NCBI RefSeq assembly: GCF_001419795.1
Contig: NZ_LIRL01000296.1
Coordinates: 1 to 38,398, forward strand
Direction: 5' to 3'
Origin: Streptomyces niveiscabiei
GTDB taxonomy: Bacteria > Actinomycetota > Actinomycetes > Streptomycetales > Streptomycetaceae
Length of the DNA: 38,398 bases
Both the position numbers and the translations under genes were made by a program. Below the pieces are notes generated by a model. It was given only the letters and a program-made list of their open reading frames with translations. It ran no database searches and had not been told where the DNA came from. How positions within the stretch are numbered: the stretch's first letter is position 1; each line of letters starts with the position of its first letter. Below, in pieces: positions 7,247 through 38,220 of this stretch.

Positions 7247-8005
7247 GTGCAGATACAACCGACGGCGGCGCAGCTCACGCTCCTGGAACCGCTGATCTCC
7301 CGGCCCCGCCTGGCTCCCTTCCTCGCCGCCACGGCCACGCCGGCGGCCGCGATGGAGTTGTATCTGTGGAACGTGCGCCTGTCGGCCGCCTTCGGCGAGG
7401 TGATCGCCCTTGCCGAGGTCATCCTGCGCAACACCATGGCGGAGCAGCTCGCCACCGTGTACGGGGCCACCTGGTACGCGCGCCCTGAGCTGTTCGACGA
7501 CCGCACCATGAGCGGCTTCAAGACCACCTGGCGCAACATCACCATGCCCGCCGACCCGGCGACCGGGAAACCGGCGACCAAGACCCTCCGGGCAGTCCCG
7601 GCCGGGAAGATCGTGGCGGAGTCCACCTTCGGCTGCTGGGTGAACCTGCTCGACAAGGGCGGCACCCGCGGCGACGGCCCGTACCGCAAGAACGTCGACT
7701 ACGACTCCACCCTGTGGCGCAAGGCCCTGCACAAGGCGTTCCCGAACAGCGGCGGCAAACGGGCCACGGTGTTCACCACCGCGAGCCATGTCCGGTCCCT
7801 GCGCAACCGCGCCGCCCACCACGAACCGCTGATCGACGGCGTTCCCCTCCCGGGCCAGACCGACCGCCGCGGCAACACCCGCCGGCTCACCCTGGCCGAC
7901 GCCCACACCGAGGTCCTGCGCCTGGTCGAGTACATCGACAAGGACGTCGCCACCTGGCTCGGACAGACCAGCCGCGTCCCCGAGCTGCTGCGCACCCGGC
8001 CCTGA
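7247..8005 (+). CDS. Abi-like HEPN protein, putative abortive-infection RNase
   Basis: A 252-residue protein. An early helix reads E-L-Y-L-W-N-V-R-L-S-A-A-F and is followed by E-V-I-L-R-N. The diagnostic C-terminal block is L-R-N-R-A-A-H-H-E-P, whose R186-x4-H191 is the HEPN catalytic signature of Abi_2-type proteins. Such proteins are metal-independent RNases that shut down translation on phage infection. A conserved-looking W-V-N-L-L-D-K-G-G-T segment sits mid-protein. The GTG at 7247 has no spaced ribosome site, and A/T-rich hexamers about 10 bp upstream suggest a leaderless transcript. It is a single gene behind the terminator at 7141-7170. The family call is from motif and architecture; the phage role is inferred from the family. 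Confidence 0.72.
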   Translation: MQIQPTAAQLTLLEPLISRPRLAPFLAATATPAAAMELYLWNVRLSAAFGEVIALAEVILRNTMAEQLATVYGATWYARPELFDDRTMSGFKTTWRNITMPADPATGKPATKTLRAVPAGKIVAESTFGCWVNLLDKGGTRGDGPYRKNVDYDSTLWRKALHKAFPNSGGKRATVFTTASHVRSLRNRAAHHEPLIDGVPLPGQTDRRGNTRRLTLADAHTEVLRLVEYIDKDVATWLGQTSRVPELLRTRP

Positions 8006-14934: not shown

Positions 14935-15034
14935 GACAGGCCGACAGGCCGTACGGCGGGCCGGGCACGGTGCCGGACAGGACATGGACAGGCCATGACT
15001 GGACACTGACACGTCGGGGACAGGTCATGACAGG
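14935..15034. repeat. Cluster of six GACAGG boxes
   Basis: GACAGG occurs at 14935, 14943, 14976, 14987, 15019 and 15029 on the plus strand. Most lie in the longer word GGACAGGCC or GGACAGGTC, and an inverted CCTGTC lies just to the left. The cluster covers the spacer between two genes of the transfer operon and the last ten bases of the FtsK-like gene. The same words recur at 20204-20314. A regulatory or transfer-origin site is possible. Confidence 0.5.
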
Positions 15035-17097
15035 GCGCCTCGGATGTCGGACAGCCGGTACGCGGTCGGTCGCCCGGGTGCGTCGGAGCGGACAGTGGGG
15101 ATGTCGAACCCCTCTTTCTTCAAACGGCCCTTGAGGTTACGGCCGATCATCGCGAGCCGGTCGTCGCGGTCCTCCCAGCGTCCCCAGGCGGCCGGGTCGG
15201 CGGCGACCATGTGCTTGGAGAGCTCCGCGACCGTCAACATCTCCGGATCACGCTCGGTAGCGAAGATGTCGAGGAGCAGGCGGACGGTCTCCGGCAGCGC
15301 GGCCGCCGCCGGCGCCGTGCTCACGGGCGTCTCCAGGCGGGGCAGCCCGGCGGCGATGCGCTCCTTCGTACGGCGGTCGGCTTCGGCGGGCGGCAGCGGG
15401 GTGACGTACCGCAGGATGGGCGTGCGGTGCCGGGGGGTGATGCAGTAGAAGCGTCCGGCGTCCGCCGGGAAACCAGGCTCGGGAGAGGGCACCAGCAGGT
15501 GCGGCAGCCAGCCCTTGGACACGGCGTTGCGCTGGCCGACCACGAGCGGCACGTCGTCCTGGCGGCACGGCAGCATGATCCGGATGGGGAAGGCGTCCGC
15601 GACAGCGTCGGACAGGACGTCGCTGGTCGCGTCCTGCGTCATCAGCACGATCGTGATCATCGCCTCGCGGCCGAGGCGCAGCAGCTGGATCGCCAACTCC
15701 TTGCCCCGGTCGCTCAGCTGAGGGAACTCGTCGATGAAGCAGATGACGGCGGGCCCATCCGGGGTGGGCTCCCACATGTCCTGAGTCGGCGGCATGGACG
15801 CGATCCGGGCGGTGGCCCGCGCCAGCAGCGCCTCCAGGACCTTCTCCGCCTCCTCCGGCGTCCGGGCGGTCATCACGGCGGCCGGCGCGAGGGTCTTCAA
15901 ACCGCGCTTGGCCGGGTCGACGTCGACCACGACCGCGTCCCGGCAGGCCGTGATGAACTCCGCGAGGGTCTGCACCAGAGCGGTCTTGCCGCCGCCGGTG
16001 TCCGCGACGACGATCACGTGCTGCCCGGCGAGCACCACCGGGGTGGTCTCGCCCTCGATAGAGATGCCGAGGGAGACCTGGCTGCGGATGGTGCACGAGC
16101 CGGGCGCCCGCTCCGGGTAGGGCTGCGGTGTGGCGAACGGGTCCTGGGTCAGGACCTGCATGCTGGCCAGCGCCGCGTCGTTGGGGTCGGCGGCCTGCGC
16201 CATCACCCGCGACTCGCCCACGCGCAGCGTGACCGCCACCTTGGGCAGTGCCTTCATCAGATCGGCCGCCGGGCCGTCCAGGACCAGCGGCACCTTCCAC
16301 CCGAACGCGAACTCCTCGGGAACGAGCACCTCGGAGACCCGCACGCCGTGCTTCGCCAGGGCGAGCTGGACCGCCTCGCGGGCCCGGCGCGGGTCACGGC
16401 CGGCCTCCCGGATCGCGAACGGCTCGGGCTCGGCTTCCTCGGACAGCTCGGTGTGCGCGGGCGGCGCGGGCGGGGTGAACAGCAGCCGCGGCACCGGCGG
16501 CCGGCGCCGGGTCGGGCGGCGGCCCTGCTGGAAGGCGAGGAGCAGGTAGAGCAGGACGGCGGCCACCGTGACATAGGCCCCGGCGCGCGGGGCCAGCGAC
16601 CACAGGCCCGCCCACACCACGAGCAGCCCGAGGATCCACCCGAACGCGGCGCGGTGGCGCACGGCGACCGCCTGGCCCCGGCCGATGGCGAGCATGTCGG
16701 AGGTGAGCTCGGTGTGCTGGAAGCTCTCCAGCCCGATCTTCATGGACAGCTGGGACCACTGCATCATCCTGTACGCGATGATCGGCGAGGAGCCGCCGCC
16801 GCCCCCGAAGTAGCCGCCGTAGCCGCCGTATCTCCCGCCGTAGCCTCCGCCGCCGCGCTTCTGCATGTGCATGCGCTGCATCTGCATCTGGGTCTGGAGC
16901 CGCTGCTGCTGTTTGAGCAGCCCAATGTTGGAGTTGACCTCGCCGCGGAAACGCGTGCGGATCTGGTTCCACTGGCGCCACTGATCGTTGAGCAGCCGGT
17001 GCGCGATGTGCGTGTCCGTCAGGTCCTCGCCGTGCCACCAGCGCGCCCACTCGGCGCGGATGTGGCGGCGCCCGTCGCCGAGCGTCCCGCTGGCCAT
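15025..17097 (-). CDS. FtsK/VirB4-like ATPase of the transfer operon
   Basis: A 690-residue protein. The N-terminal segment (about 50-110) is unusual: a Gln/Met-rich stretch followed by a Gly/Tyr-rich tract (G-G-G-G-Y-G-G-R-Y-G-G-Y). Two membrane helices lie at about 150-185. The motor has Walker A A-D-T-G-G-G-K371-T and Walker B V-I-C-F-I-D456-E-F, then V-L-M-T-Q-D-A as a sensor-like segment. The last 85 residues resemble a winged helix (L-T-V-A-E-L-S-K-H-M ... L-K-G-R-L-K-K-E-G-F). This fits a FtsK/SpoIIIE or VirB4-type conjugation ATPase acting at the membrane. The start at 17097 is preceded by GGGGGAGAGAAGG. It is 19 bp after the previous gene of the operon. Confidence 0.75.
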   Translation of the reverse strand: MASGTLGDGRRHIRAEWARWWHGEDLTDTHIAHRLLNDQWRQWNQIRTRFRGEVNSNIGLLKQQQRLQTQMQMQRMHMQKRGGGGYGGRYGGYGGYFGGGGGSSPIIAYRMMQWSQLSMKIGLESFQHTELTSDMLAIGRGQAVAVRHRAAFGWILGLLVVWAGLWSLAPRAGAYVTVAAVLLYLLLAFQQGRRPTRRRPPVPRLLFTPPAPPAHTELSEEAEPEPFAIREAGRDPRRAREAVQLALAKHGVRVSEVLVPEEFAFGWKVPLVLDGPAADLMKALPKVAVTLRVGESRVMAQAADPNDAALASMQVLTQDPFATPQPYPERAPGSCTIRSQVSLGISIEGETTPVVLAGQHVIVVADTGGGKTALVQTLAEFITACRDAVVVDVDPAKRGLKTLAPAAVMTARTPEEAEKVLEALLARATARIASMPPTQDMWEPTPDGPAVICFIDEFPQLSDRGKELAIQLLRLGREAMITIVLMTQDATSDVLSDAVADAFPIRIMLPCRQDDVPLVVGQRNAVSKGWLPHLLVPSPEPGFPADAGRFYCITPRHRTPILRYVTPLPPAEADRRTKERIAAGLPRLETPVSTAPAAAALPETVRLLLDIFATERDPEMLTVAELSKHMVAADPAAWGRWEDRDDRLAMIGRNLKGRLKKEGFDIPTVRSDAPGRPTAYRLSDIRGALS

Positions 17098-17116
17098 AGC
17101 CTTCTCTCCCCCGTGC

Positions 17117-17617
17117 TCAGATCGAGTGGATCAGGATGTCGCCGACCGTGTTGCCGCTGGTCCTGATCAGGCCGAGCGCCATCCCGATCAGTCCCGCCGA
17201 CGCTCCGAGGAACACGCCGACTGCGGCGCCGCGCAAAACGGGCTCCTTCAAGTCGTACCTGCCGGACTTGATCAGCCCGGCGTACAGGGCGAGCAGGCAC
17301 AGCCCGGCTATGGCCCCGCCGACGGCGACCTTCTCGCCGCCGGTCACCGGTCCCTGGGCTCCGGCCTTGGCAACCGCGCCGGTGGCGCCCTCCAGGGCGT
17401 AAGTTCCTATGCCGTCGCCGAACGCCGCAGCCGCGCCGCCCATGACGCCGAACAGGCCGCCACCCAGGAACAGCAGGGCGGCCAGCGCCACGCCCGCGAA
17501 AAAGTGGATCTTGGGCGTGGGATCGCCGCCTCGCCACCTGCCGATTTGGTAGAAGAGGAGGACCAGGCCAAAGGCGACCGCGCCGATTCCGCCGGCGGTG
17601 GCTCCGACGTCGTTCAT
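17117..17617 (-). CDS. Small polytopic membrane protein of the transfer operon
   Basis: A 166-residue Gly/Ala-rich protein with about five hydrophobic segments, at about 7-24, 38-62, 97-115 and a final pair between 128 and 152. The ATG at 17617 has AGGAG six bases upstream and follows the preceding stop by a single base, so translation is coupled. Position, size and composition suggest a structural channel component, but the family is not recognised. Confidence 0.6.
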   Translation of the reverse strand: MNDVGATAGGIGAVAFGLVLLFYQIGRWRGGDPTPKIHFFAGVALAALLFLGGGLFGVMGGAAAAFGDGIGTYALEGATGAVAKAGAQGPVTGGEKVAVGGAIAGLCLLALYAGLIKSGRYDLKEPVLRGAAVGVFLGASAGLIGMALGLIRTSGNTVGDILIHSI

Positions 17618-17618
17618 T

Positions 17619-18431
17619 TCATGCTCCTGTCAGGAAGTGCACCGCGCCGCGCCAGACCGCGCGGACGACGGAGATAGCGAAACTCCAGAGGGCCACGGCG
17701 ACGATCAGCCGCATCACGTAGCCGATGACCGGGGTGGACCACGCCTTGCCGAACAGGCGGATCAGCGCGATGACCAACCAGCTGATCAGGTCGCTGAATG
17801 CGGAGGCCAGCCAGCTGCCAATCGGCAGCACCATGAGCAGTCCCAGCAGCAGGGCGAAGATCAGGACGGCCCCGAGCGGGGCGAAGATCCCGTCTTCGCT
17901 GATCCAGGCAGTCATCCGGTCGACGCTGGTGTGGCTGCGCCAGGTCACCAGCAGCGAGATCAGGATGGCGGGGACGTTGTACTTCAGCCGCAGCCAGCGC
18001 AGATCGGCCTTGGGCTTGGCGCCCGGGGCGTGCGGGTCGGGCAGGCGCGAGGTGATCGCGTCGCTGATGTACTCGCCGATCTCCACGGCGGCCGCGATGC
18101 CCTCCTGGCCGTGCGTTGCCCAGGTGTCGCGCATCTCGCCGCGCACTTGGTCCCCTTGCCAGAACGTTCCTGCCGGGTCGCCGCCCTCGCCCTGGTCGGG
18201 GCGGCCTGCCTCGAGCGCCCAGTCCGAGCCCGGCCTGTGCGGGGGCATCGGCGGCGCGGCGGGCGGAAGGGGAGCTGCGGCACGCCACCAGTCATCGGCC
18301 GTACCGTCGGCAGCGGGGGCGGGGTCCATCTCGGGTTCCACCGGCGCGCGCTGCATGGGCACTTCAGGGGGCAGCGGCTGCCGTACGGCAGCCGGGTCGG
18401 GGGTGCCGGCTATCTCTCCGTCGTCGCTCAT
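17619..18431 (-). CDS. Membrane protein with proline-rich N-terminus, transfer operon
   Basis: A 270-residue protein. Residues 1-75 are Pro/Ala/Asp-rich and probably disordered. Residues 80-145 are soluble and charged. Four hydrophobic segments follow between about 148 and 265, including P-L-G-A-V-L-I-F-A-L-L-L-G-L-L-M-V-L. The ATG at 18431 overlaps the stop of an upstream 36-codon gene by four bases (ATGA). The layout resembles other channel components of actinobacterial conjugation systems, without a recognised family. Confidence 0.6.
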   Translation of the reverse strand: MSDDGEIAGTPDPAAVRQPLPPEVPMQRAPVEPEMDPAPAADGTADDWWRAAAPLPPAAPPMPPHRPGSDWALEAGRPDQGEGGDPAGTFWQGDQVRGEMRDTWATHGQEGIAAAVEIGEYISDAITSRLPDPHAPGAKPKADLRWLRLKYNVPAILISLLVTWRSHTSVDRMTAWISEDGIFAPLGAVLIFALLLGLLMVLPIGSWLASAFSDLISWLVIALIRLFGKAWSTPVIGYVMRLIVAVALWSFAISVVRAVWRGAVHFLTGA

Positions 18432-18538
18432 GCCGCACCGCCGGAGACGTACGTGCCGATGGCGGGGCGGGGCAACGGCCAGGACCGGGTCCCGCTGTTG
18501 GTGGGACGGCGCGCGCCGTCGACGACGATGTCCGTCAT
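18428..18538 (-). CDS. Small coupled leader gene of the transfer operon
   Basis: A 36-codon frame (M-T-D-I-V-V-D-G-A-R-R-P-T) with AGGAAGGA about nine bases before its ATG. Third positions are strongly G/C, and its stop overlaps the ATG of the next gene as ATGA. These three signs argue that it is translated even though it is short. The product would be a small Gly/Pro-containing peptide of unknown role. It may mainly deliver ribosomes to the membrane-protein gene. Confidence 0.6.
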   Translation of the reverse strand: MTDIVVDGARRPTNSGTRSWPLPRPAIGTYVSGGAA

Positions 18539-18712
18539 CCAGCCGGGTCCTTCCTGGTGGGGGTCTGCGGTGGGCGTCGTTCGAGCGATCCGGCCACCGC
18601 GGCTCGATCACGTGTAGCAATCTACGCTCCACGCCCCGTGAGAACACAGGGGCTTCTACTGCAACTCGCCGCTCCCACCAGCACATTCACCACAGATCCG
18701 CACCAAAGGCAC

Positions 18713-19831
18713 TCAGGTATGGCGCCGTCCGAGCAGGCCGTCGCGACGCTGGTCGTCGCGCACTGGGTAGGCACGGTGATCGTCGGGGTTGTCGAGGGCC
18801 TGGTCCAGCGTCTCGAGAAGGTCGTGACCGTAGCGCCACCACACCGGGCCGTGGGGACCCTTGTCGGCCAGCAGCGCCAGGGTGGTGGCGAGCACCGGGA
18901 CCGTGCCGGTGTAGTCGCGGTAGCCGTCATGCTCGTTCTCGGGGCCAGTGTGATGGGTGTGCCACAGGCCCTGCCAGTGCTCCTGGGACAGACGGCCGAC
19001 CTCTCCGATGCGCTCCTGCATGATGCGCGGCCCGACCTGTTTGGTGAACACGATCGCGACGGGCGGGAAGCCGCCGCGGCCGGAGTCCTCCCACAGCGTC
19101 GACCACATCGGCACCTCGAAGCCTCGATGGTCAGTCACGCCTCGATGGAAGAACCGCCGGTAGCGGGCGATCTTGTCCGCTATCTGGGCGGGCGGCTCGG
19201 TGTGGTTGTCGACCTCCACGAACAGCACCGGGACACCGTCCTCGGGGGCGATCAGCACCGCGTCCGCGCGCAGGCTGCCCCGGCCCGGTGCGGTGAACGT
19301 CCCCGTGATCGGGAGGCCGACCTCGGTGGTCCAGCCGCGTAGCTTCCCCAGGCCCGCCGGACGGACCCCGGCCTGCCGTGGCGGCCTCGCAGGGACGGCA
19401 AGCCGGGGGCGAGGAACCGGCTTCGTGGGCAGCGGCTCGGACTGGCGGAACGCGTCGATCGTGTCCGTCACCTTCAGCGCGTGGGCCGCGCCGGCCTTCG
19501 CCGCGTCCCGGGCGGTGCCGCCCATCTCCCGCAGCGGGCGGTCCAGTTCGGTCGCGGCCGCCGCGAGGCCTGCCGCAGTGAGGTTCCACAGCTGTTCGTT
19601 GACCGGATGCCCCGACTTGCCCGGGCGGCTGGTCGACCCGACCGACTCCACCAGGCCAGCACCCTTGAGGTCCTTGCAGGCGTTGCGGACCGTCTGCGTA
19701 TCCGCCGTCCCGGGCAGCACCAGCTGGCGCAGCTGCGAGGCCGTTGCCACCTTCACCACGCCCAACGCCAGCAGCACCAGGGCACGCGCTCGCGCCGTCG
19801 ACCCGTACGGCCACCGCCGTGTCCCGCCCAC
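18713..19831 (-). CDS. Replication-relaxation (Replic_Relax) family protein
   Basis: A 372-residue protein typical of actinobacterial plasmids and conjugative elements. The N-terminal winged helix covers about residues 12-100 (A-R-A-L-V-L-L-A-L-G-V-V-K-V-A-T-A-S-Q-L ... D-L-K-G-A-G-L-V). The C-terminal nuclease-like domain has the signature R-A-D-A-V-L, then V-L-F-V-E-V-D-N-H-T-E, then A-D-K-I-A-R-Y-R-R-F. The family is linked to plasmid replication or relaxation by association; no mechanism is proven. The GTG at 19831 was chosen because GGAAGGGGAGAGG lies upstream; a longer ATG-start version (19954) lacks such a site. It stands upstream of the transfer operon on the same strand, and a 12-bp-period repeat array lies 165 bp before its start. 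Confidence 0.8.
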   Translation of the reverse strand: MGGTRRWPYGSTARARALVLLALGVVKVATASQLRQLVLPGTADTQTVRNACKDLKGAGLVESVGSTSRPGKSGHPVNEQLWNLTAAGLAAAATELDRPLREMGGTARDAAKAGAAHALKVTDTIDAFRQSEPLPTKPVPRPRLAVPARPPRQAGVRPAGLGKLRGWTTEVGLPITGTFTAPGRGSLRADAVLIAPEDGVPVLFVEVDNHTEPPAQIADKIARYRRFFHRGVTDHRGFEVPMWSTLWEDSGRGGFPPVAIVFTKQVGPRIMQERIGEVGRLSQEHWQGLWHTHHTGPENEHDGYRDYTGTVPVLATTLALLADKGPHGPVWWRYGHDLLETLDQALDNPDDHRAYPVRDDQRRDGLLGRRHT

Positions 19832-19996
19832 TTCTGATCCTCTCCCCTTCCAATTCGTCCCACCGCGCAATGTGCTGCTCCGGAGCCACCCTCCCCCGAG
19901 ACGACCACAGACAACGAGGTGGGAGCCGAAGGTGCTGGTCAGGCCCTGATGCATGGGCTGAGCTGCACGGACGGAGCTTTACAAGCCCATGATCAC

Positions 19997-29792: not shown

Positions 29793-31949
29793 GTGGCCAA
29801 CACCAAGACCCGTCGCAGGCGCCAGCCCGCGGCTTCACCGCCTCGAGGCGCCGGGCGCGCCAAGGCGCCGGCGGCTCCGGCCGCCATCCCCGCCCAGGCC
29901 GTCTCCGAGGAGACCGTGCCGCTGGTGTTCGAGGAGGCCGACCCGCTCCTGGCCGACGCCGCCGACCGCGCCGCCGACCTCCGGGACCTGGCCGCCGACG
30001 ACGCCGCGCGCATCCTCGCCGACGGCGAGACCCGCGCCGCCGAACTCCTGGACGGCGCCCGCTCGGTGGCCGCCTCGATCACCGAGGCGGCCACCACCGA
30101 GCAGGCCCGCCTCCTGGCCGACGCGCAGACCGACGCCGACCGGGTCCGCACGGAGGCCGCGACCAGCGCGGCCACCGACGCCGACCAGGTCCTGGCCGAC
30201 GCCGACGCGAAGGCCAAGCAGCTGCTCGCCGACGCGCGCAGTGAGGCCGACACCGTCACTGCGACGGCGTCCGGCAACGCCGACCAGGTCCTGGCCGACG
30301 CCCGCGCGGCTGCCGAGCAGCTGCTCGCCGACGCCCGCGACCAGGCGCAAGAGGTCACGACCACGGCGGCCTCGAAGGCCGACACCGTGCAGGCGGAGGC
30401 CGCGCAGGTCCTCGCCGACGCGGAGACCCAGCGCACCGAGCTGCTCACGGCGGCGGAGCGCACCGCGGCGGAAACCCGCAGCCGGGCCGCCGTCGACGCC
30501 GACCAGGTCCTTCAGCGGGCGCGGAGCGAGGCCGACCGGCTGCGTGAGAGCGCGGACGGTCAGGCCGCGCAGGTGCGGGCCGGAGCCGAGAAGGCCGCGG
30601 CCGGCCTTCGCCAGGACGCCGAACGCGCCCTGGCCGACGCCCGTACCTCCGCTGAGGAGCTGCGGGCGGCCACCGACAAGGACGTCACCAGGCTGCGCGA
30701 GCAGGCGGAGACGGACACGGTGGCGGCCCGGGAGGCGGCGGCCAAGGCCACGGCCGACAAGGCCGCCGCCGAACGCGCCCTGGCTGAGGCGGAGCGGGTC
30801 CTTGAGGCGGCGACGGACCGCACCGTGCAGCGGGCCCGCCGCCGGGAGATCCGGACCGAGTCCCGCGCCAAGCGGCGCAAGGCCCGCGCCGACGCCCGGC
30901 CCGCCGGCGGTGTCCCGCCGCTGTCCGGGCAGGAGCTGGTCCTGGTCGTCGGGATCGTCCTGGCGGCCGCGGTCGTCTCCACCCTCGGTCTGCTGTCCTC
31001 CTACACCGCGCTGGAGGCCAAGGCGGCGGCGTGGGGCTGGGACTGGCCGTGGCTGCTGCCGGTCGGCATCGACGTCGCCATCCCGGCGTTCACCGGCGCC
31101 AACCTGGTCCTGATCCGCATGGGCATGGAGCTGCGCTGGATCCGCTGGGTGCCCCGGGCGCTGACGGCGGTGACGGTCTACCTGAACTGGAACGCCTCGG
31201 ACTCCGCGGCGGGCCGGATCGGGCACGCCGCCCTCACGCTGCTGTGGGTGATCTTCTCGGAGATCGCCTCCCACGTGTACGCGACGCGGATCGGCGCGGT
31301 CACCGGCAAGAAGCGGATGGAGACGGTGCGGCGCTCGCGCTGGATCCTCGCCCCGATCCCCACCGCCCGGCTTCGCCGCCGGATGATCCTGTGGGAGATC
31401 ACCTCCTACGAAGAGGCGCTCACCCGCCTCCAGGAGCAGACCTGGCTGCGGGCGCAGCTCAAGGAGGACTACGGCTGGAAGTGGCGCTGGAAGGCTCCGC
31501 TGGAGCAGCGGATGGCGCTCAAGCTCGACACCGCGCCCGCCGCGCTCGCCGACACGCTCACCCCCGAGGACACGCTCACCGTCGAACGGGCAGAGGAGAC
31601 CGAGCACGCTCACCCCGACATGAGCGCGCTCACCTCGGGCGAGGTTCGCGGCGAGCGTGAGCGCCCGGCGCTCACCTCCGGCGCTCACGAGGGTGAGCGC
31701 GGCACGGAGGAGACGGACGCTCAGCGAGCGGAGGGCGCGCTCACGCGCAGCGAGACGGACGCGCTCACCGAGCGCCGCCGCGCTCGTATCCGTCGGCTCT
31801 ACACCGAGCTCGGGCGCCGACCCGAGTGGACGGAGATCCGCGACGCGCTCACCGACGCGGGCCTGGACGGTACGAACGGCACCCCGGTCTCCCGCCCGAC
31901 CGCTCAGCGCCTGCGCGCTCAGGTCGAAGAGGCCACCCCGGGCGCGTAG
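29793..31949 (+). CDS. DUF2637 membrane protein with long coiled-coil N-terminus
   Basis: A 718-residue protein from GTG 29793 (V-A-N-T-K-T-R-R-R-R). Residues about 35-350 form an Ala/Asp/Glu-rich coiled coil with recurring blocks such as D-Q-V-L-A-D-A and Q-L-L-A-D-A-R. Four membrane helices lie at about 381-405, 412-440, 450-467 and 474-495; this DUF2637 core (W-G-W-D-W-P-W-L-L-P-V-G-I-D-V) is common on actinobacterial conjugative plasmids and is thought to help transfer or spread. A linker rich in A-L-T follows. The C-terminal 50 residues look like a DNA-binding helix-turn-helix (R-R-P-E-W-T-E-I-R-D-A-L ... S-R-P-T-A-Q-R-L-R). The DNA for residues about 588-686 carries the CGCTCAC array, so this gene also holds a cis site. 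Confidence 0.78.
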   Translation: MANTKTRRRRQPAASPPRGAGRAKAPAAPAAIPAQAVSEETVPLVFEEADPLLADAADRAADLRDLAADDAARILADGETRAAELLDGARSVAASITEAATTEQARLLADAQTDADRVRTEAATSAATDADQVLADADAKAKQLLADARSEADTVTATASGNADQVLADARAAAEQLLADARDQAQEVTTTAASKADTVQAEAAQVLADAETQRTELLTAAERTAAETRSRAAVDADQVLQRARSEADRLRESADGQAAQVRAGAEKAAAGLRQDAERALADARTSAEELRAATDKDVTRLREQAETDTVAAREAAAKATADKAAAERALAEAERVLEAATDRTVQRARRREIRTESRAKRRKARADARPAGGVPPLSGQELVLVVGIVLAAAVVSTLGLLSSYTALEAKAAAWGWDWPWLLPVGIDVAIPAFTGANLVLIRMGMELRWIRWVPRALTAVTVYLNWNASDSAAGRIGHAALTLLWVIFSEIASHVYATRIGAVTGKKRMETVRRSRWILAPIPTARLRRRMILWEITSYEEALTRLQEQTWLRAQLKEDYGWKWRWKAPLEQRMALKLDTAPAALADTLTPEDTLTVERAEETEHAHPDMSALTSGEVRGERERPALTSGAHEGERGTEETDAQRAEGALTRSETDALTERRRARIRRLYTELGRRPEWTEIRDALTDAGLDGTNGTPVSRPTAQRLRAQVEEATPGA

Positions 31950-32044
31950 GTGAGCGCCCGGTGAGCGCCGACACGCTCACCCCCGGCAGTCCCCTGCCGC
32001 TCATGGTCGCCCCCGGTCCGCGCTCACGCTCCCGAGCGTGAGCG
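31555..32044. repeat. Array of sixteen CGCTCAC boxes, candidate clt/TRS locus
   Basis: CGCTCAC occurs on the plus strand with GCTCAC at 31556, 31574, 31608, 31628, 31670, 31683, 31739, 31763, 31847, 31975 and 32022. On the minus strand GTGAGC occurs at 31657, 31693, 31950, 31961 and 32038. The eighth base is C in eleven copies and G in five. The boxes fall in different reading frames of the DUF2637 gene (as CTC-ACC, GCT-CAC and GT-GAG-CG) and continue past its stop, so the DNA word itself is conserved rather than a peptide repeat. Streptomyces TraB motors recognise 8-bp repeats of this kind in clt loci; equating this array with clt is inference. Confidence 0.7.
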
Positions 32045-32052
32045 CGGACCGG
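32013..32052. repeat. 19-bp perfect inverted repeat with 2-base loop
   Basis: Bases 32013-32031 pair perfectly with 32034-32052 around CC. Each arm contains one CGCTCAC box, so it is the right-hand end of the box array as well as a possible terminator for the DUF2637 gene. The tiny loop suggests a cruciform or protein site more than a simple RNA hairpin. Confidence 0.65.
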
Positions 32053-32112
32053 TGACGGCCACGGCCGGCAGGCCGCTCGCCCGCACCGTGCCCCGAGCGC
32101 GGGCGGGCCCGG

Positions 32113-32265: not shown

Positions 32266-32298
32266 GGCTTGTCCACTCACGCAAGAAAGGAGCACAGC

Positions 32299-32814
32299 AT
32301 GGCACCCACGACGACCGGGCCAGCCCCGAAATCTGGGCGCTTCACCCGTACGACGACCCCGCCGGCGCCCGCGCTGGCACCCCCCGCGGTGATCCCGCCG
32401 GCCCTGGAGATCTGGGCGCCCGACCCCCCGACCTGGGGCCAGCGAATGATCCCCAAGGGGGTCCGGTCCGCGATGGCTGACCTGGGGCTTTGGCAGGAGC
32501 CGCGCCCCCTGCGGCCCTCGTATCACCTGGTCCAGGTGATCGAGGTCCTCACCCGCTACGGCTGGTGCCAGTCCTTCGATTTCTCCCCCACCGGACGTAT
32601 GTGCATCAGGGGTGCCCAGACCTTTCTGGAATCCACCGGGCACGTCACCACGATCGACCGGGGGAAAGCAGTGAATTACCTCCAGACGCAGCTGTCACGC
32701 CAGGGCGTGAACATGCGGTTCTGGGAGTGGAACGACCTTTCGCACAACAATTTTCGAGGTGTAGAGGCCATGATCTCTGCGGCCTCTGACCTGGCGCGTA
32801 GGAACGGAGACTGA
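32299..32814 (+). CDS. DUF6197-like protein
   Basis: A 171-residue protein with AAAGGAG seven bases before ATG 32299. The first 55 residues are Pro/Thr/Ala-rich. The rest has the pattern of DUF6197: Y-H-L-V-Q-V-I-E-V-L-T-R-Y-G-W-C-Q near residue 76, then G-R-M-C-I-R-G-A-Q, a middle helix, and F-W-E-W-N-D near the end followed by an Ala-rich helix. The function of DUF6197 is unknown. Its stop is one base before the next gene, which starts a compact rightward group ending with the FtsK/TraB-like motor. Family assignment is moderately sure. Confidence 0.65.
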   Translation: MAPTTTGPAPKSGRFTRTTTPPAPALAPPAVIPPALEIWAPDPPTWGQRMIPKGVRSAMADLGLWQEPRPLRPSYHLVQVIEVLTRYGWCQSFDFSPTGRMCIRGAQTFLESTGHVTTIDRGKAVNYLQTQLSRQGVNMRFWEWNDLSHNNFRGVEAMISAASDLARRNGD

Positions 32815-32815
32815 A

Positions 32816-33451
32816 ATGACACCGGAAGAAGAGAGGGCATTCGAAGGAATTCAGGCCGGAATGGCGGCAGGAATGGCCTTCGGGAACAGTGCTCCGGACG
32901 CGTCCCCGTACGCCGATGAGGGGCCGTACGGAACCCCGGTCGTAAAGCACAAGAAGGCCGGTCTGACCCGCCGGGGGAAGGTCGCCATCGCGGTGGCCGG
33001 AGTGGCGATCGTCGGTGGCGGAACCATTTGGTTCCAGGTCCATTCGGCGGCCGTCGCGAAGGATGAGAAGGAGGCCGCCGCCCTCCAGGTCCAGATGAAG
33101 AAGCTGGAACTAGAGGAAATGAAGATCAGGAACCAGCAGGCGAGTTCCGACAAGAAGGCCGCGACCGCCTCCGCCGAAAAGATCCAGGCGGCCGTCGACA
33201 AGTGTGTGAAGGACTCCGCGCACCTGATCGGCAAGGGGTACGGATCGCCCTCGCGGGGCGACGTCGTAGCGGACTGTAAGCAGCAGTACGAGTCCGTCGA
33301 CGGGTCCGGCATGGAGGCCGCGGGCAACGCCCAGGCCGCCGGTAACGGTGGGGGCGGCGGGATCAACTCCCCCGCCCTGCTGGGTCTCGTTGCGGGCGGT
33401 GGCCTGGCCATTGCGGTGTTCGCACGCAAGGGCAAGAAGGCTGACGCGTAG
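32816..33451 (+). CDS. Membrane protein with two helices and charged coiled coil
   Basis: A 211-residue protein; ATG 32816 follows GGAG at six bases and the previous stop by one base. Residues 1-50 are soluble (F-E-G-I-Q-A-G-M-A-A-G-M-A-F-G). A membrane helix covers about 55-75 (V-A-I-A-V-A-G-V-A-I-V-G-G-G). A Lys/Glu/Gln coiled coil follows (about 82-130), then a region with two Cys (130 and 155). After a Gly-rich turn (about 176-183) comes a second helix (about 187-204) with a Lys-rich end. The loop is probably outside the cell, where the Cys pair could form a disulfide. Family not recognised; context suggests a transfer role. Confidence 0.65.
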   Translation: MTPEEERAFEGIQAGMAAGMAFGNSAPDASPYADEGPYGTPVVKHKKAGLTRRGKVAIAVAGVAIVGGGTIWFQVHSAAVAKDEKEAAALQVQMKKLELEEMKIRNQQASSDKKAATASAEKIQAAVDKCVKDSAHLIGKGYGSPSRGDVVADCKQQYESVDGSGMEAAGNAQAAGNGGGGGINSPALLGLVAGGGLAIAVFARKGKKADA

Positions 33452-33486
33452 TCACGCACGGTGATTAATTACTCCCTCCCTCCTGA

Positions 33487-33540
33487 GCGGAGAGCGCCGC
33501 AATCGGGTTTCCATGATCCGGTTGATCGGCCGCTCTCCGC
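33487..33540 (+). terminator. Hairpin between membrane and Gly-rich protein genes
   Basis: A ten-base stem (33487-33496 with 33531-33540) encloses a 34-base loop in the 140-bp spacer. It lies 36 bp past the preceding stop and 51 bp before the next start. Strength is moderate because of the long loop. Confidence 0.5.
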
Positions 33541-33591
33541 CGGGAGGTAAGGAGTAAGGAACCACTGGCAACCACGGAGAGTGAGGAAGAG

Positions 33592-35388
33592 ATGGCGACC
33601 GATACGGTGCCCCCGGCCCCCGCAGGGCCACCCGATCCGCCCACTTCGCCGGCCGCCAGCACCGCGCCGGCGCCAGCCGGAGACACCGGCATCATGGCCG
33701 CCCTGATGGCCGCTGTGGAGCCCGCCCGGCCGGTCACCACGACCGGCGCCGGGGCCAGGCCGGACGGTGACGACCCGGCCGCGAAGGCGGACCCCGACGG
33801 GGTGGTGGACCGCTCTACCCCGGGCGTCACCAGCGAGCAGTTCAAGGCCCCGCAGGACCTGAATGGGGCCGGTGACGCGGCCGGTGCCCAGCACAAGGAG
33901 GGCGTTTTCAAAACGCTGATCCGGGCGGGCGCGACCCGCTGGGCAAAGGGCGGCGGGGCAACGAACAAGCGGCTGGACCTGGCGAAAGCCAGGGCTGGCG
34001 CGCACCAGGTGAAAGAGACCCGGACCACCACGGTCATGAAATCGCCTGGACTTCCCACCCGGAACGGCTCCGGAGGGGCTGGTGGAGGGGGCCGGAATTC
34101 CGGCGGAAGCGGTGGTGGAAATTCGGGCCGTAATTCCTCCGGGAACGGCTCTTCGGGCACCGGGCGCGGCGGAAGCGGCGGCGGCACCGGAGGCGGCGGG
34201 CGCGGCTCGAACGGGAACGGAGGGTCCGGCGGCGGGCGCGGCACCAGCGGAAATGGTGGCGGAGGTTCGTCGAAGGAAACCGGCTCCAAGGGGGCGAAGG
34301 ACTCCGCGAGCAAGGGGAAGGACGGTTCCTCGGGGAATCCGGGGGCTGGCGGAAAGGCGGGCAAGGACGGAAAGCCCGGCACCTCCGGAACCGGCGGCGG
34401 ATCGACGTCGGGCGGATCGTCCGGCGGTAATTCCGGCACCTCGAAGGACACGGCCGACAAGGGCCAGGGCGCGAAGACCGACCTGACGAAGGGCGGTGGC
34501 GGCCAGGGTTCGGGCGGCTCCTCCGGGAGCGGCGGCGGGTCCGGTTCGAGCGGCGGCGCCGGCAAGGACGGCAAGAGCGGCAGCAGCGGCTCGGACGGGG
34601 CCAGCGGGACCGACAGCCGGACCCCGCTCCAGCGTTCGCGGGAGGTCGGTCACGGTGACGGCTCCGCGGTCCGGGACGTGGTCGACCACGTGGTGGCGTA
34701 CGCGAAGGGCACGAAGGACGGCTACCAGGACAAGAAGGAGGAGAACGCCAAGGAGCACGCGCGGCTGGATGAGGCGCACGCCGACCAGAAGGCGAAGCGG
34801 CGGGACCCGAAGCAGGACGACCCGGAGCAGCAGGAGACGACGGTCACCGGTCCCAGCGGCCAGACGATCGTCATCACCTCGGATGAAGGAGACGACGGAG
34901 TGAGCACGGACGTGAAGCCCCTCCTGGTCAAGGAGATCGACGCGAACACGCTGACCCTGGGCACGGACGGCGCCCGTGGGTCGGTCAGCCGCAAGGAGCT
35001 CCGCAACTTCAAGCAGTACGAGCGGAAGCTGGAGGCGAAGGAGGACCACCTGATCAAGGTGGCCGACGCGTGCAAGCAGCTCGAAGCCGCTGCGGAGGAT
35101 GAGGCGAGGGACTGCCAGCAGCTCGCTGAGCAGGCGAAGGCCGTCAAGGGCGGGGAGAAGCTGGCCGCGACGCTGACGAAGCTGGCCGACGCGGCGAAGG
35201 CCCAGGCGGCGGAGGCCGCCGAACTCCACAAGCGCGCGACGCGGGCGGCGGAGATGTGCAAGGTCGTCCTGACCAACATCGGGACCAGGTACGCGCCGCT
35301 GTACAAGGCCGTGGTGGACAGCGACGAGACGAAGCCTGCCGAACTCCGCTTCTACAACGACAAGGGCTCCTACGCGCCCGCCGCGTAG
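33592..35388 (+). CDS. Large protein with 180-residue Gly/Ser/Asn-rich tract
   Basis: A 598-residue protein. The N-terminal 155 residues are Pro/Ala-rich then basic. Residues about 160-341 are extreme low complexity, made of Gly, Ser, Asn, Thr and Lys (G-S-G-G-G-N-S-G-R-N-S-S-G-N-G type). Residues about 345-430 are charged, including K-R-R-D-P-K-Q-D-D-P-E-Q-Q-E. The C-terminal 165 residues begin with a small beta unit (V-K-P-L-L-V-K-E-I-D-A-N-T-L-T-L-G-T-D-G). Long Ala/Glu/Lys helices with two Cys follow. No signal peptide is seen. The ATG at 33592 has AGGAAG close upstream. Family not recognised. Position between membrane and motor genes suggests a scaffold or surface component of the transfer system. 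Confidence 0.7.
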   Translation: MATDTVPPAPAGPPDPPTSPAASTAPAPAGDTGIMAALMAAVEPARPVTTTGAGARPDGDDPAAKADPDGVVDRSTPGVTSEQFKAPQDLNGAGDAAGAQHKEGVFKTLIRAGATRWAKGGGATNKRLDLAKARAGAHQVKETRTTTVMKSPGLPTRNGSGGAGGGGRNSGGSGGGNSGRNSSGNGSSGTGRGGSGGGTGGGGRGSNGNGGSGGGRGTSGNGGGGSSKETGSKGAKDSASKGKDGSSGNPGAGGKAGKDGKPGTSGTGGGSTSGGSSGGNSGTSKDTADKGQGAKTDLTKGGGGQGSGGSSGSGGGSGSSGGAGKDGKSGSSGSDGASGTDSRTPLQRSREVGHGDGSAVRDVVDHVVAYAKGTKDGYQDKKEENAKEHARLDEAHADQKAKRRDPKQDDPEQQETTVTGPSGQTIVITSDEGDDGVSTDVKPLLVKEIDANTLTLGTDGARGSVSRKELRNFKQYERKLEAKEDHLIKVADACKQLEAAAEDEARDCQQLAEQAKAVKGGEKLAATLTKLADAAKAQAAEAAELHKRATRAAEMCKVVLTNIGTRYAPLYKAVVDSDETKPAELRFYNDKGSYAPAA

Positions 35389-35409
35389 GACCGGACGGGA
35401 GAGCCGATC

Positions 35410-35790
35410 ATGGCGGAGCTGACGTACAAGGTCCTGGTCCGGAAGGTCCAGGCGAAGGAGAAGGCCCTGGCCCGCAACGCGGAGGGCGTCAAGAAGGCCG
35501 CGGAGAACATCAAGGAACTGGCCGACGACACCGCCTCCGACGCGGACGCGCTGGGCGCCAAGAGCGTGGACCGCGACTCCCTGGCGGAGTGCCAGGAGCT
35601 CTCGAAAATCATCCGCGGGGTGTCGGACGGCGCGATCGACTACGCGTCGAAGACGGCCGACACCGCGAAGGCCGCGAAGGCGGCGGGCGACCAGGCCCGC
35701 ACCACCCACGCCGGGTTCCAGGAAGCCTTCGACCGCTCCAGCGTGACGGACCTGGAGAAGGTCTCGCGCGACTGGTTCGAGCAGGAGTAG
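35410..35790 (+). CDS. Small all-helical protein beside the TraB-like motor
   Basis: A 126-residue protein; GGAG lies eight bases before ATG 35410. It is almost completely helical and rich in Ala, Lys, Asp and Glu (V-K-K-A-A-E-N-I-K-E-L-A-D-D-T-A), ending D-W-F-E-Q-E. Composition and helix pattern echo the C-terminal domain of the preceding protein, 21 bp upstream. It is a little longer than WXG100 proteins and lacks W-x-G, so I do not call it one. A helical-hairpin partner or substrate of the transfer motor is possible. Confidence 0.65.
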   Translation: MAELTYKVLVRKVQAKEKALARNAEGVKKAAENIKELADDTASDADALGAKSVDRDSLAECQELSKIIRGVSDGAIDYASKTADTAKAAKAAGDQARTTHAGFQEAFDRSSVTDLEKVSRDWFEQE

Positions 35791-35804
35791 CACCACCCAC
35801 CACC

Positions 35805-35848
35805 GGCGCGGCCGGTCCGGGGATCGCATCCCCCGGGCCGGCCGCGCC
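35805..35848 (+). terminator. Terminator between the helical gene and the TraB-like gene
   Basis: An 18-bp stem with one G-T pair (35805-35822 with 35831-35848) closes an eight-base loop and is followed by CCTTT. It lies 14 bp past the preceding stop. Transcription of the motor gene may therefore be partly separate from the upstream genes. Confidence 0.8.
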
Positions 35849-35889
35849 CCTTTGCGGATCACCCCGTATCCAGACAGGAGATTCCCTCG

Positions 35890-38220
35890 ATGTCCACCAC
35901 CATCAAGACCGTGCCGAACGCGGAGCCTGTGGAGCGCGCCGCCGCTGCGCTTCAGATCGTCCTCCCCGTCGGGGTGGGCATCCTGGCCCCGTTCCTTGAC
36001 CCGAACGCCGCCCTCTACGCCGGGGTCGGCTTCCTGGCCGGTGCGACGTTCGCCGGCGCCAACTACATGAACCGCCTGGGGCGCTGGGCGAACCAGCTCC
36101 CGGGGATCGACATCGCGCGGGCGCACCGCGACACCATGGGGATCTCCACGATCACCACCGGAATGGGTCTGGCCCTGGGGCAGTTGGGCGGAGCCGAGGC
36201 GTCCGAAGCGCTGATGGCCGGTGTCTTCGAGCCGACCACCATCCCGGGGATCCTGTCGCTGGGATGGTGGGCCGCGGTCGTCTTCACCGGCTGGCGCCTT
36301 CGCCGCGTCTTCGGGCGACGGAAGATCGAGGTGGAGCAGGCGTCGGTGCAGAGCGGCCCGGCCAACACCGGCACCCCGGCCGCGGTGTCCCTGGCCGACA
36401 AGATGATCGCGGCCTGGGGGCGCGTGATCAGCGACCCGAAGAACGGCCGCCACAAGAACCAGGTGTTGTCGGATGTCGTGATCTACGCCGACCGCTGGGA
36501 GGGCCGGATCACCGCCGCCCTCGGGGACTCCGTCAACGTGGCGAAGGAGACCGTCTCCAGCCTCTTCGGCCGCTCGATCGAGGACATCACCATGAAGGTG
36601 GGTGCGCACTCCGGCGAGGTCTTCCTGACCGTCTGGTACACCCAGCGTGCGGAGCTGGACCCCTCCACGCTCCAGGGCGCTTGGAAGCGCGTCCAGGCCC
36701 GGGTGCTGCCGAAGACGCACCTGGAAGAGGTCGGCGAGGACACCAACACCGGCGGCCAGGTGGCGCGCGTCGTGGCCGACGACGACCTGGACGCCCTCCC
36801 CCGCGTCGTCAACCTCGGAGAGCTGGCGGGCGCGCTGCGCCGCTCCATCGACCTCGTCTCCTACGAGCCGGGACGGCGCGACCCCAGGCGCGCGATCATC
36901 CGCGTCATGGACCACAACCCGCTGGAGGCCGGCCACGACTTCCAGGGCCTGGACTCGCTCAAGGCCACCCCGGGCGGCTGGGTCAACATCGGGAAGATCG
37001 TGAGCGGCTTCCCCGCGAAGATCCAGCTGTTCGACCCGAAGCTGGGCGCCCTCCACGTCGTGATCGCCGGTACCACCGGCTCCGGCAAGGGAGGCACGGG
37101 CCAGATGATCAGCCTGGCCTACCACGCCAACAAGATGGCTCAGATCTACGGCGACCCCAAGGGCGCCAGCAACCCCGCGATCCCGAAGATGGCCGCCTAC
37201 AGCGGCCTGACCCAGGCCGGGGCCCTGGGTGCCATGCGGATCTCGTGGTGGGTCCTCCAGCATCGGATCGAAGAGGCCGCCCGCCTGGAGCTGAAGAACT
37301 TCGAGCCGACGGCTATGCGCCCGTACTGCGCCACGATCCTGGACGAGGCCGCCCAGATGCTGGCCCCGGGCGCACCGAACCGCAAGGAAGCGGTGAAGAT
37401 CGTCAAGGACGGCGCCTCCCTGACCCGCTCCATGGGCATGCCCTGGGTGCTGATCAACCAGACCGTCAACCTGGACCAGCTCGGCAGCGAGCAGGCGATC
37501 CGCGCCAACCTCCTGGCCGGTGGCACCTGGATCATCCTGCGTACCGACAGCGACCAGGTGAACCTGGGCGACCTTCCCCCCGGCTTCGAGGGGATCGACC
37601 CCTCCCTGATCCCGCCGGTGTGGGTGGAGGAGGACGACTCGCTGGTGTACGACCCGACCATGGCGGAGTCGGACCCGCGCCGCACCTTCGGCCTCGGCTA
37701 CGTCGCAGCTCCCGGCGGGCGCGCGGGCATGATGCGCATCGACACGCTGGAGGACGCCACCGGGCACATCCGGCCGGAGAACATCCTGGCCCCGGTCGAC
37801 GTGCCCTGGTGGGGCGACGAGGCGTACATGGAGGAGCTGGCCATGACTCCCATCCCAGGCTTCGAGGAGAAGGACGGCGAGGGTGGGACCGGCGAGGCCG
37901 GGACCGTGTTCGCCGGAGTCAACCTCCCGAAGGTGTCCAACAAGGAGCTGACGTCGGAGGAGAAGGTCCTGGCCGCCCTCCGTGACGAGTCCGACCCCAT
38001 GTACGTGGACATGGTCGACGAGGGCGACGAGATCGAGCCCGGCGACGTCGACTACGTGGAGCGGGGCCAGCTGCTGGCCGCCTGCGGGGTGACGGAGTCG
38101 ACCTTCGCGAACGTGCTGAACAAGCTGGAGAAAGCAGGAAAGATCCACCGGATCAAGGACGGCAAAGCCTCGAAGGTGGCCCTGGGCAGCCGACCGGAGG
38201 CCACTGACGAGGCCGCCTGA
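35890..38220 (+). CDS. FtsK/SpoIIIE-type DNA translocase, TraB-like
   Basis: A 776-residue protein with AGGAG nine bases before ATG 35890. The hydrophobic N-terminus (about 20-60 and 95-145) should anchor it in the membrane. A soluble region (about 175-350) precedes the motor: Walker A A-G-T-T-G-S-G-K400-G, Walker B C-A-T-I-L-D-E-A-A near 492, and L-I-N-Q-T-V as sensor. The Ser/Thr that normally follows the Walker A Lys is Gly401, which is unusual. Residues about 722-767 form a winged helix (R-G-Q-L-L-A-A-C-G-V-T-E-S-T-F-A-N-V-L-N-K-L-E-K-A-G), comparable to the gamma domain with which TraB or FtsK reads 8-bp DNA words. It likely pumps double-stranded plasmid DNA between hyphae. The CGCTCAC array 4-4.5 kb upstream is a candidate target. 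Confidence 0.8.
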   Translation: MSTTIKTVPNAEPVERAAAALQIVLPVGVGILAPFLDPNAALYAGVGFLAGATFAGANYMNRLGRWANQLPGIDIARAHRDTMGISTITTGMGLALGQLGGAEASEALMAGVFEPTTIPGILSLGWWAAVVFTGWRLRRVFGRRKIEVEQASVQSGPANTGTPAAVSLADKMIAAWGRVISDPKNGRHKNQVLSDVVIYADRWEGRITAALGDSVNVAKETVSSLFGRSIEDITMKVGAHSGEVFLTVWYTQRAELDPSTLQGAWKRVQARVLPKTHLEEVGEDTNTGGQVARVVADDDLDALPRVVNLGELAGALRRSIDLVSYEPGRRDPRRAIIRVMDHNPLEAGHDFQGLDSLKATPGGWVNIGKIVSGFPAKIQLFDPKLGALHVVIAGTTGSGKGGTGQMISLAYHANKMAQIYGDPKGASNPAIPKMAAYSGLTQAGALGAMRISWWVLQHRIEEAARLELKNFEPTAMRPYCATILDEAAQMLAPGAPNRKEAVKIVKDGASLTRSMGMPWVLINQTVNLDQLGSEQAIRANLLAGGTWIILRTDSDQVNLGDLPPGFEGIDPSLIPPVWVEEDDSLVYDPTMAESDPRRTFGLGYVAAPGGRAGMMRIDTLEDATGHIRPENILAPVDVPWWGDEAYMEELAMTPIPGFEEKDGEGGTGEAGTVFAGVNLPKVSNKELTSEEKVLAALRDESDPMYVDMVDEGDEIEPGDVDYVERGQLLAACGVTESTFANVLNKLEKAGKIHRIKDGKASKVALGSRPEATDEAA

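Follow-up and report, generated by a model that had tools for sequence, protein, structure and literature searches.

We examined a 38,398-base stretch of the Streptomyces niveiscabiei contig NZ_LIRL01000296.1 (the window, to which all plain coordinates refer), in which an array of short DNA words is written into the 3' end of a gene for a predicted membrane protein of the DUF2637 family. Four genes and an FtsK/TraB-like motor gene lie 3' of the array gene on the same strand (Table 1). As judged from this locus and its relatives, large Streptomyces plasmids appear to write a word array into a membrane-protein gene whose tail probably reads it, as an address label beside a DNA-transfer motor.

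A recount confirmed that the heptamer CGCTCAC (hereafter box) occurs 16 times on both strands within ~490 bp, as the initial annotation had noted, and each copy is indeed followed by C or G. The constant C said to precede the heptamer did not hold up, the preceding base being G in 71% and A in 27% of 505 family sites. Eleven of the irregularly spaced boxes lie inside the coding sequence (CDS), seven and two of them in two sense frames and two in antisense; the earlier statement that three reading frames are used thus holds only if antisense boxes are counted. The other five fall past the CDS, where the array runs, as had been described, into a 19-bp inverted repeat. A single CGCTCAC at 31417 precedes the array, bringing the CDS total to 12. 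Because the variants CGCTCGC, CGCTCAA, CGCTCAG and CGCTCAT are each enriched 10-15 fold in arrays, RCGCTCR, derived from the 505 sites at 36 non-identical loci, is a better motif than CGCTCAC; 24 of its 64 sites in the window fall in 31540-32060.

Since dinucleotide shuffles of the whole window hold 13.2 ± 4.0 CGCTCAC matches, clustering rather than the total count (22 exact matches, including the 16 of the array) constitutes the signal. No other 7-mer in the window is as clustered as CGCTCAC, and a check of box density elsewhere in the window, of the kind the initial annotation had proposed, found at most one copy in every 490-bp stretch outside 31000-32100. Genome-wide there are 2681 copies in 9,547,199 bases, i.e. 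~0.28 per kb vs. ~33 per kb in the array, and in two whole plasmids examined there was one dense cluster per replicon. The initial annotation had further argued that selection acts on the DNA and not on the protein, suggesting codon shuffling as a check. None of 5000 shuffles reached the observed number, neither over the whole CDS (12 boxes vs. a mean of 2.09 and a maximum of 8) nor over the last 136 codons (11 boxes vs. a mean of 3.69 and a maximum of 10). Leucine codons in 31555-31946 comprise nine CTC and two CTG, and those upstream in the gene 17 CTC, 34 CTG and four CTT. With a shuffle excess found in relatives as well, these comparisons support selection on the DNA words rather than on the protein.

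DUF2637 (PF10935) is the only Pfam family matched by the array gene (43.3 bits vs. a gathering threshold of 22.8, E 4.7e-11); matches to DivIVA/Wag31 and Scy models are weak and far under their cut-offs. In a 72-residue model of the tail, with a mean predicted local distance difference test (pLDDT) score of 79, i.e. fair confidence, helices span residues 4-27, 33-42 and 55-68, and VSRPTAQRLRAQ is the presumed recognition helix. The linker is probably, rather than certainly, disordered, because much of the membrane domain, too, has a pLDDT below 50. The motor is only remotely akin to curated TraB, scoring 15.5 bits against NCBIfam plasmid_TraB (NF041214; cut-off 800), and matches 107 plasmid records, 102 from Streptomyces and five from Kitasatospora.

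Table 1. Coordinates of the array, the array gene with its parts, and the downstream module
Feature	Position	Strand	Remarks
Array-bearing gene, 718 aa	29793..31949	+	coiled coil, DUF2637 membrane domain, low-complexity linker, C-terminal helix-turn-helix
Coiled-coil N-terminal part	29793..30929	+	homologue shared with CGGWCCG genes, 52-60%
Predicted membrane domain (DUF2637)	30930..31540	+	low-confidence model
Linker, encoded by a dense part of the array	31541..31739	+	residues 200-271 with pLDDT <50
Three-helix (helix-turn-helix) C-terminal domain, proposed array reader	31740..31934	+	model; holds most of the invariant columns
Array of 16 CGCTCAC boxes (core motif RCGCTCR)	31555..32044	both	covers the DUF2637 gene's 3' end, the stop codon and ~95 nt past it
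Perfect 19-bp inverted repeat, 2-nt spacer	32013..32052		one box per arm; 3' of the stop
Module gene, DUF6197	32269..32814	+	likely start ATG 32299; tracks motor type, not word
Module gene without family	32816..33451	+	tracks motor type, not word
Module gene, Gly/Ser-rich centre	33592..35388	+	tracks motor type, not word
Small module protein, 126 aa	35410..35790	+	tracks motor type, not word
W-type FtsK/TraB-like motor	35890..38220	+	Walker-A-like motif and C-terminal winged-helix-like segment, both by eye

Array words, protein tails and motors on related plasmids

Loci for comparison came from a motor search of 392 genomes (16 with a match) and from plasmid records searched with the motor and the array gene. 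Motors of the window's type (W; 86-93% identity) adjoin, in the same position, arrays of five different clean words: CGCTCAC (L005, L006, L025, L086 and the window), CGGWCCG (L007-L009, L027, L080), GTAC-core words (L010), CCGTSACG (L078) and CGAACC (L079). Another W locus, L003 (CCGAAGC), is ambiguous, as 15 of its 18 words share one frame, though their number lies above codon shuffles; at L004 (W motor) the array region is beyond the contig. CGCTCAC also accompanies X motors (L019, L026, L114), Y motors (L021, L082, L087) and more distant ones, and CGGWCCG accompanies X motors (L084, L085, L088). GTAC words were found with X motors at L089, L105 (SAP1, a plasmid of S. avermitilis), L108, L111 and L113 and with distant Y motors at L095, L097 and L104, CCGTSACG with the X motor of L115 and the distant Y motor of L090. 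X plasmids thus carry four of the words found with W motors. We distinguish six word classes, four of which occur with more than one motor type: class A (CGCTCAC) with W, X and Y motors, class B with W and X motors, and classes C and D with both of these as well as with distant Y motors.

The initial annotation had offered two readings of the array, as loading site for the 35890-38220 motor through its winged helix or as target for the C-terminal helix-turn-helix of the encoded protein. The presumed recognition helix of the motor, ESTFANVLNKLE, is identical in all 15 W motors of at least 86% identity and thus stands beside different words, and all 16 X motors with at least 50% identity and complete ends (the incomplete L085 stands outside this set) finish in a Gly/Arg-rich tail with no visible winged helix; both assignments were made by eye. 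On the strength of this swap, the motor was discarded as array reader, and the W motor is not supported as the source of word specificity. The reading that invokes the protein's own tail gained support from its linkage to the word across motor types, from co-travel and tail conservation, and from contigs of a viral collection (below).

A search for a second, motor-specific word cluster common to W loci gave nothing convincing, with several shared clusters in the Gly-rich gene and others scattered. CGTGCAC clusters (at least three in 250 bp) occur at 11 of 12 X-motor loci and at none of 14 W-motor loci. The X-type protein in motor position (L084:14081-16225 and relatives) is annotated as 'chromosome segregation protein ParM', a name that looks unreliable; that of L084 matches no Pfam or NCBIfam model at the limits applied.

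Across 40 loci, the word spectrum of the array correlates with similarity of the tail helix-turn-helix at r 0.91, of the N-terminal half at 0.58 and of the motor at 0.08. The spectra omit the last 170 nt of each CDS, which removes most tail-coding DNA, though not all of it where a gene has a C-terminal extension. Left out of the 40 were L003, nine loci of a coiled-coil type (L098-L102, L106, L107, L109, L110), loci whose contig stops before or within the array gene (L004, L011, L016), loci in which an array was not found (L012, L013, L017, L112) and unclassed ones (L091-L094, L096, L103), among which L094 carries repeats of CGTACCGA at the edge of its stretch. Because the classes were chosen after the words had been seen and the array adjoins the tail, r 0.91 is to be read as linkage and not as a blind test.

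Co-travel was screened with open reading frames (ORFs) of at least 50 aa, taken from the part of the window beyond 20 kb and from L086 and L026 (3-24 kb); tblastn matches counted at E 1e-6 if they covered 40% of the query, and the 14 best were listed for each query locus. Of the class A loci, 10 of the 11 that have other motors and all four that have the W motor contain the array gene, which was absent from all eight W-motor loci with other words; queried with the L086 copy, one of these eight matched. Among the matches listed, and ORFs inside or across it aside, it was the sole ORF with the class A pattern, the genes from 32269 to 38220 tracking motor type. A swap within the gene is seen in L079, whose coiled coil and membrane domain are 67-70% identical to the CGGWCCG family and whose tail and word differ. 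In classes B-F, all 14 representative genes exceed the maximum of 500 codon shuffles, the words having been picked from the arrays; the class B word occupies all three frames, with up to 31 sites per 600 nt. The swap, as read from these sequences, counts against the motor and the tested neighbour genes, and we infer binding by the tail itself.

Close relatives, viral-collection contigs and loci without arrays

Searching genome contigs with the membrane-linker-tail part returned 21 loci, 20 at 78-90% identity and one at 46%. All 20 close relatives hold 8-21 boxes each (last 700 nt of the gene plus 300), and the 46% relative, with a different tail, holds one. A motor lies downstream on the same strand in all 20, the best query being W in six, X in five, Y in five and two further types in two each; six of these relatives (L124, L125, L131-L134) lie on contigs equal in length to contigs of the 40-locus set.

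Five loci of the viral collection (L137-L141) match only in the tail, two of these also in part of the linker, at 39-57%. In the matching place they hold 4, 7, 8, 5 and 13 CGCTCAC, respectively, numbers reached by 5, 0, 0, 6 and 0 of 2000 codon shuffles each, which excludes chance in three of the contigs and nearly so in two. The contigs may be phages, plasmid-phages or plasmids. The linkers of L138 and L139 show no similarity to the window linker beyond shuffled sequence, yet both are boxed, and that of L141 lies slightly above its shuffles (65 vs. a maximum of 58); the DNA words therefore persist where the peptide hardly does. The L141 tail region, searched at the protein level against the phage collection, gave no match. 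The circular pSLE1 (L081, NZ_LN831788), which bears terminase and capsid genes, has a 62% motor homologue and an in-gene array of the word GGCTCA; the tail of its array gene is nearly identical to that of L014.

DUF2637 loci were surveyed with a pass mark of a best 8-mer count in 500 bp more than two above the maximum of five random sequences. Of 20 loci at 44-55% identity, taken for the type of actinomycete integrative and conjugative elements (AICEs; L028-L047), none passed; one of 12 at 36-40% (L070 among L066-L077) and three of 18 other, mostly longer variants (L051, L055 and L059 among L048-L065) did. With none of 20 and one of 12 passing, DUF2637 alone is no predictor of an array. At the AICE-like L045:6236-6605, six CGGTCGGC lie inside a TraB-like motor gene and resemble a classical clt. 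The nine coiled-coil relatives, whose repeats nearly all share a frame and mostly also a strand, possibly represent a further word class or a recent duplication. One of them, L102 (contig C736), belongs to the same genome as the window and is a second module, with a Y-like motor (35%) and a coiled-coil gene whose CTGCCGAA repeats are nearly all in one frame.

A proposed addressing cassette and its alternatives

In the arrangement we propose, the array would serve as binding array for the C-terminal helix-turn-helix of the protein it encodes, and this protein would be a plasmid-borne DNA receptor composed of a coiled coil, a membrane domain, a linker and a DNA-binding tail. Many receptor copies on the array may tether the plasmid at the membrane beside the conjugation apparatus encoded downstream. 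The receptor, not the motor, would tell the plasmid's own DNA from other DNA, the motor then pumping whatever DNA the receptor presents, and reader, linker and array would form one exchangeable cassette. That the tail reads the array is very likely, and that it does so as part of a transfer region is likely; given reading by the tail, a role in transfer or spread is reasonably probable. Physical binding, tethering at the membrane and a function in transfer or intramycelial spread rather than in partition are what we infer from the comparisons above. We lean, with modest confidence, towards the fullest form of the proposal: a self-contained addressing cassette, in which the array of a membrane-anchored DNA receptor is written into the DNA that codes for the receptor's linker, reader and address co-move by recombination, motors are word-blind, and plasmid identity is set by exchangeable cassettes (six word classes) on linear plasmids, a plasmid-phage and viral-collection contigs.

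Several observations weigh against this proposal. Physical linkage of array and tail means that co-inheritance alone yields part of their correlation, the classes and class words were set after the arrays had been inspected, and, given the tail, a slight word-motor correlation persists (partial r 0.12, permutation 0.013). Searches with the tail fold give only weak helix-turn-helix-like matches (Z <8; Foldseek best E 2.7). Arrays are not universal, the motor-bearing L012, L013, L017 and L112 showing none, and among the 15 loci that the Y-motor search gave (L090-L104) only four could be classed. Near four of the five viral-collection loci no motor was found with our own motor queries; at one of these four, L141, a neighbour weakly matches FtsK_SpoIIIE (E 0.024). 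Finally, the TGCCGAA count of the coiled-coil relatives beats 300 codon shuffles in eight of nine, so that shuffle excess alone cannot tell arrays from duplicated protein repeats.

The last point bears on the notion that a repetitive peptide linker gave rise to the words as a by-product. Many sense boxes do code for A-L-T or T-L-T, and the repeats of the coiled-coil relatives keep to nearly one frame and mostly one strand, but the window's boxes in other frames, in antisense and past the stop, their excess over codon shuffles, and the boxed yet dissimilar linkers of L138 and L139 make this extremely improbable. An iteron-type replication origin inside the gene would have a parallel in RepC of repABC plasmids, a protein that binds a cis site, an origin, in the very gene that encodes it (PMC2783167). 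The RepC site is a replication origin, however, whereas the product here is a predicted membrane protein, no Rep-like domain was matched in the array gene or the window module (Pfam, NCBIfam), and exchange of the cassette leaves the rest of the transfer module conserved; we consider an origin very improbable. The RepC site is not known to be an exchangeable short-word array in a membrane-protein gene. An autoregulatory operator array, bound by the tail or a repressor that controls the array gene or the downstream module, would fit the five boxes and the inverted repeat in the interval that separates the array gene from the module genes. It is nonetheless quite improbable, given that the boxes lie mostly in coding sequence, that the site density of class B is far above operator needs, and that a membrane-anchored reader would make an unusual repressor.

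The main functional alternative is partition, with the array as a centromere and the membrane protein segregating or anchoring the plasmid in vegetative mycelium, transfer being secondary. Static binding to a centromeric repeat array is known in other partition types (PMC13245405). StbA of R388, a DNA-binding protein acting via an array of 9-bp repeats, the stbDRs, serves both stability and conjugation (PMC3098194), and its DNA-binding domain (7pc1) weakly resembles the tail within a 339-residue model (Z 5.8, 72 residues aligned, root-mean-square deviation 5.1); 7pc1 is not among the 50 matches listed for the 72-residue model, nor is StbA in the Foldseek list of the latter. The stbDRs are regular direct repeats around the operon promoter, whereas the array here is irregular, uses both strands and sits at a gene's 3' end. 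To our knowledge, StbA is not membrane-anchored. Partition is rather unlikely in view of the transfer-type motor coupled to the array gene in 20 of 20 close relatives, of at least one such plasmid that also has parA and parB ~11 kb from the array gene, and of the window's module genes, which have no ParA- or ParB-like match (Pfam, NCBIfam). The array gene itself differs from ParB-parS systems in matching no ParB CTPase or helix-turn-helix model, with none among its NCBIfam matches and DUF2637 alone from Pfam.

Closest in layout are the clt/TRS (TraB recognition sequence) loci of pSVH1, pJV1 and pWTY27, likewise short-word clusters in a Streptomyces plasmid transfer region beside an FtsK-like motor. 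There, clusters of 5-9 bp repeats lie beside tra genes, the motor moves double-stranded DNA, specificity is assigned to the winged helix of pSVH1 TraB itself, and clt of pWTY27 overlaps 16 bp of traA, so that partial coding overlap is known (all as given in PMC3583192). Loading of the motor at boxes read by its own winged helix is also compatible with the winged-helix-like tail of the W motor and with the motor downstream in every close relative. It is improbable, however, since one presumed recognition helix accompanies different words, X motors lack a visible winged helix and word and motor correlate at r 0.08. A translocase that reads the words, the defining feature of clt/TRS, was thus not found by this indirect test; the word tracks the tail of the membrane protein encoded over the array instead, the array fills the end of its reader's own gene, and one motor type is without a visible winged helix.

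The proposed membrane receptor also recalls SpdB2 of pSVH1, an integral membrane protein that binds DNA non-specifically and interacts with TraB (as described in PMC4170104). The window protein is likewise a predicted membrane protein, is proposed to bind DNA and lies in a transfer region beside a motor; it differs in its word-linked tail. At E 0.1, SpdB of pIJ101 matches neither DUF2637 nor any other Pfam or NCBIfam model. In the literature searched, whose coverage did not extend to the original pSVH1 papers, we found no description of an array in its own reader's gene. To judge by the natural swaps, the specificity factor is a membrane receptor separate from the motor, with the array inseparable from its reader. 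If true, recognition codes are to be expected for several word classes, the coexistence of several large plasmids within a single mycelium might be explained, plasmid addressing could be tested with a portable tag, and the DUF2637 proteins encoded by these plasmids would gain a concrete role.

Other features of the window

On the minus strand at 15025-19954, a Replication-relaxation gene (18713-19954) lies near a gene for an AAA_10-like ATPase (15025-17097); the pair is possibly a second, relaxase-type mobility system. An Abi_2 family gene at 7247-8002 on the plus strand is a candidate abortive-infection defence.

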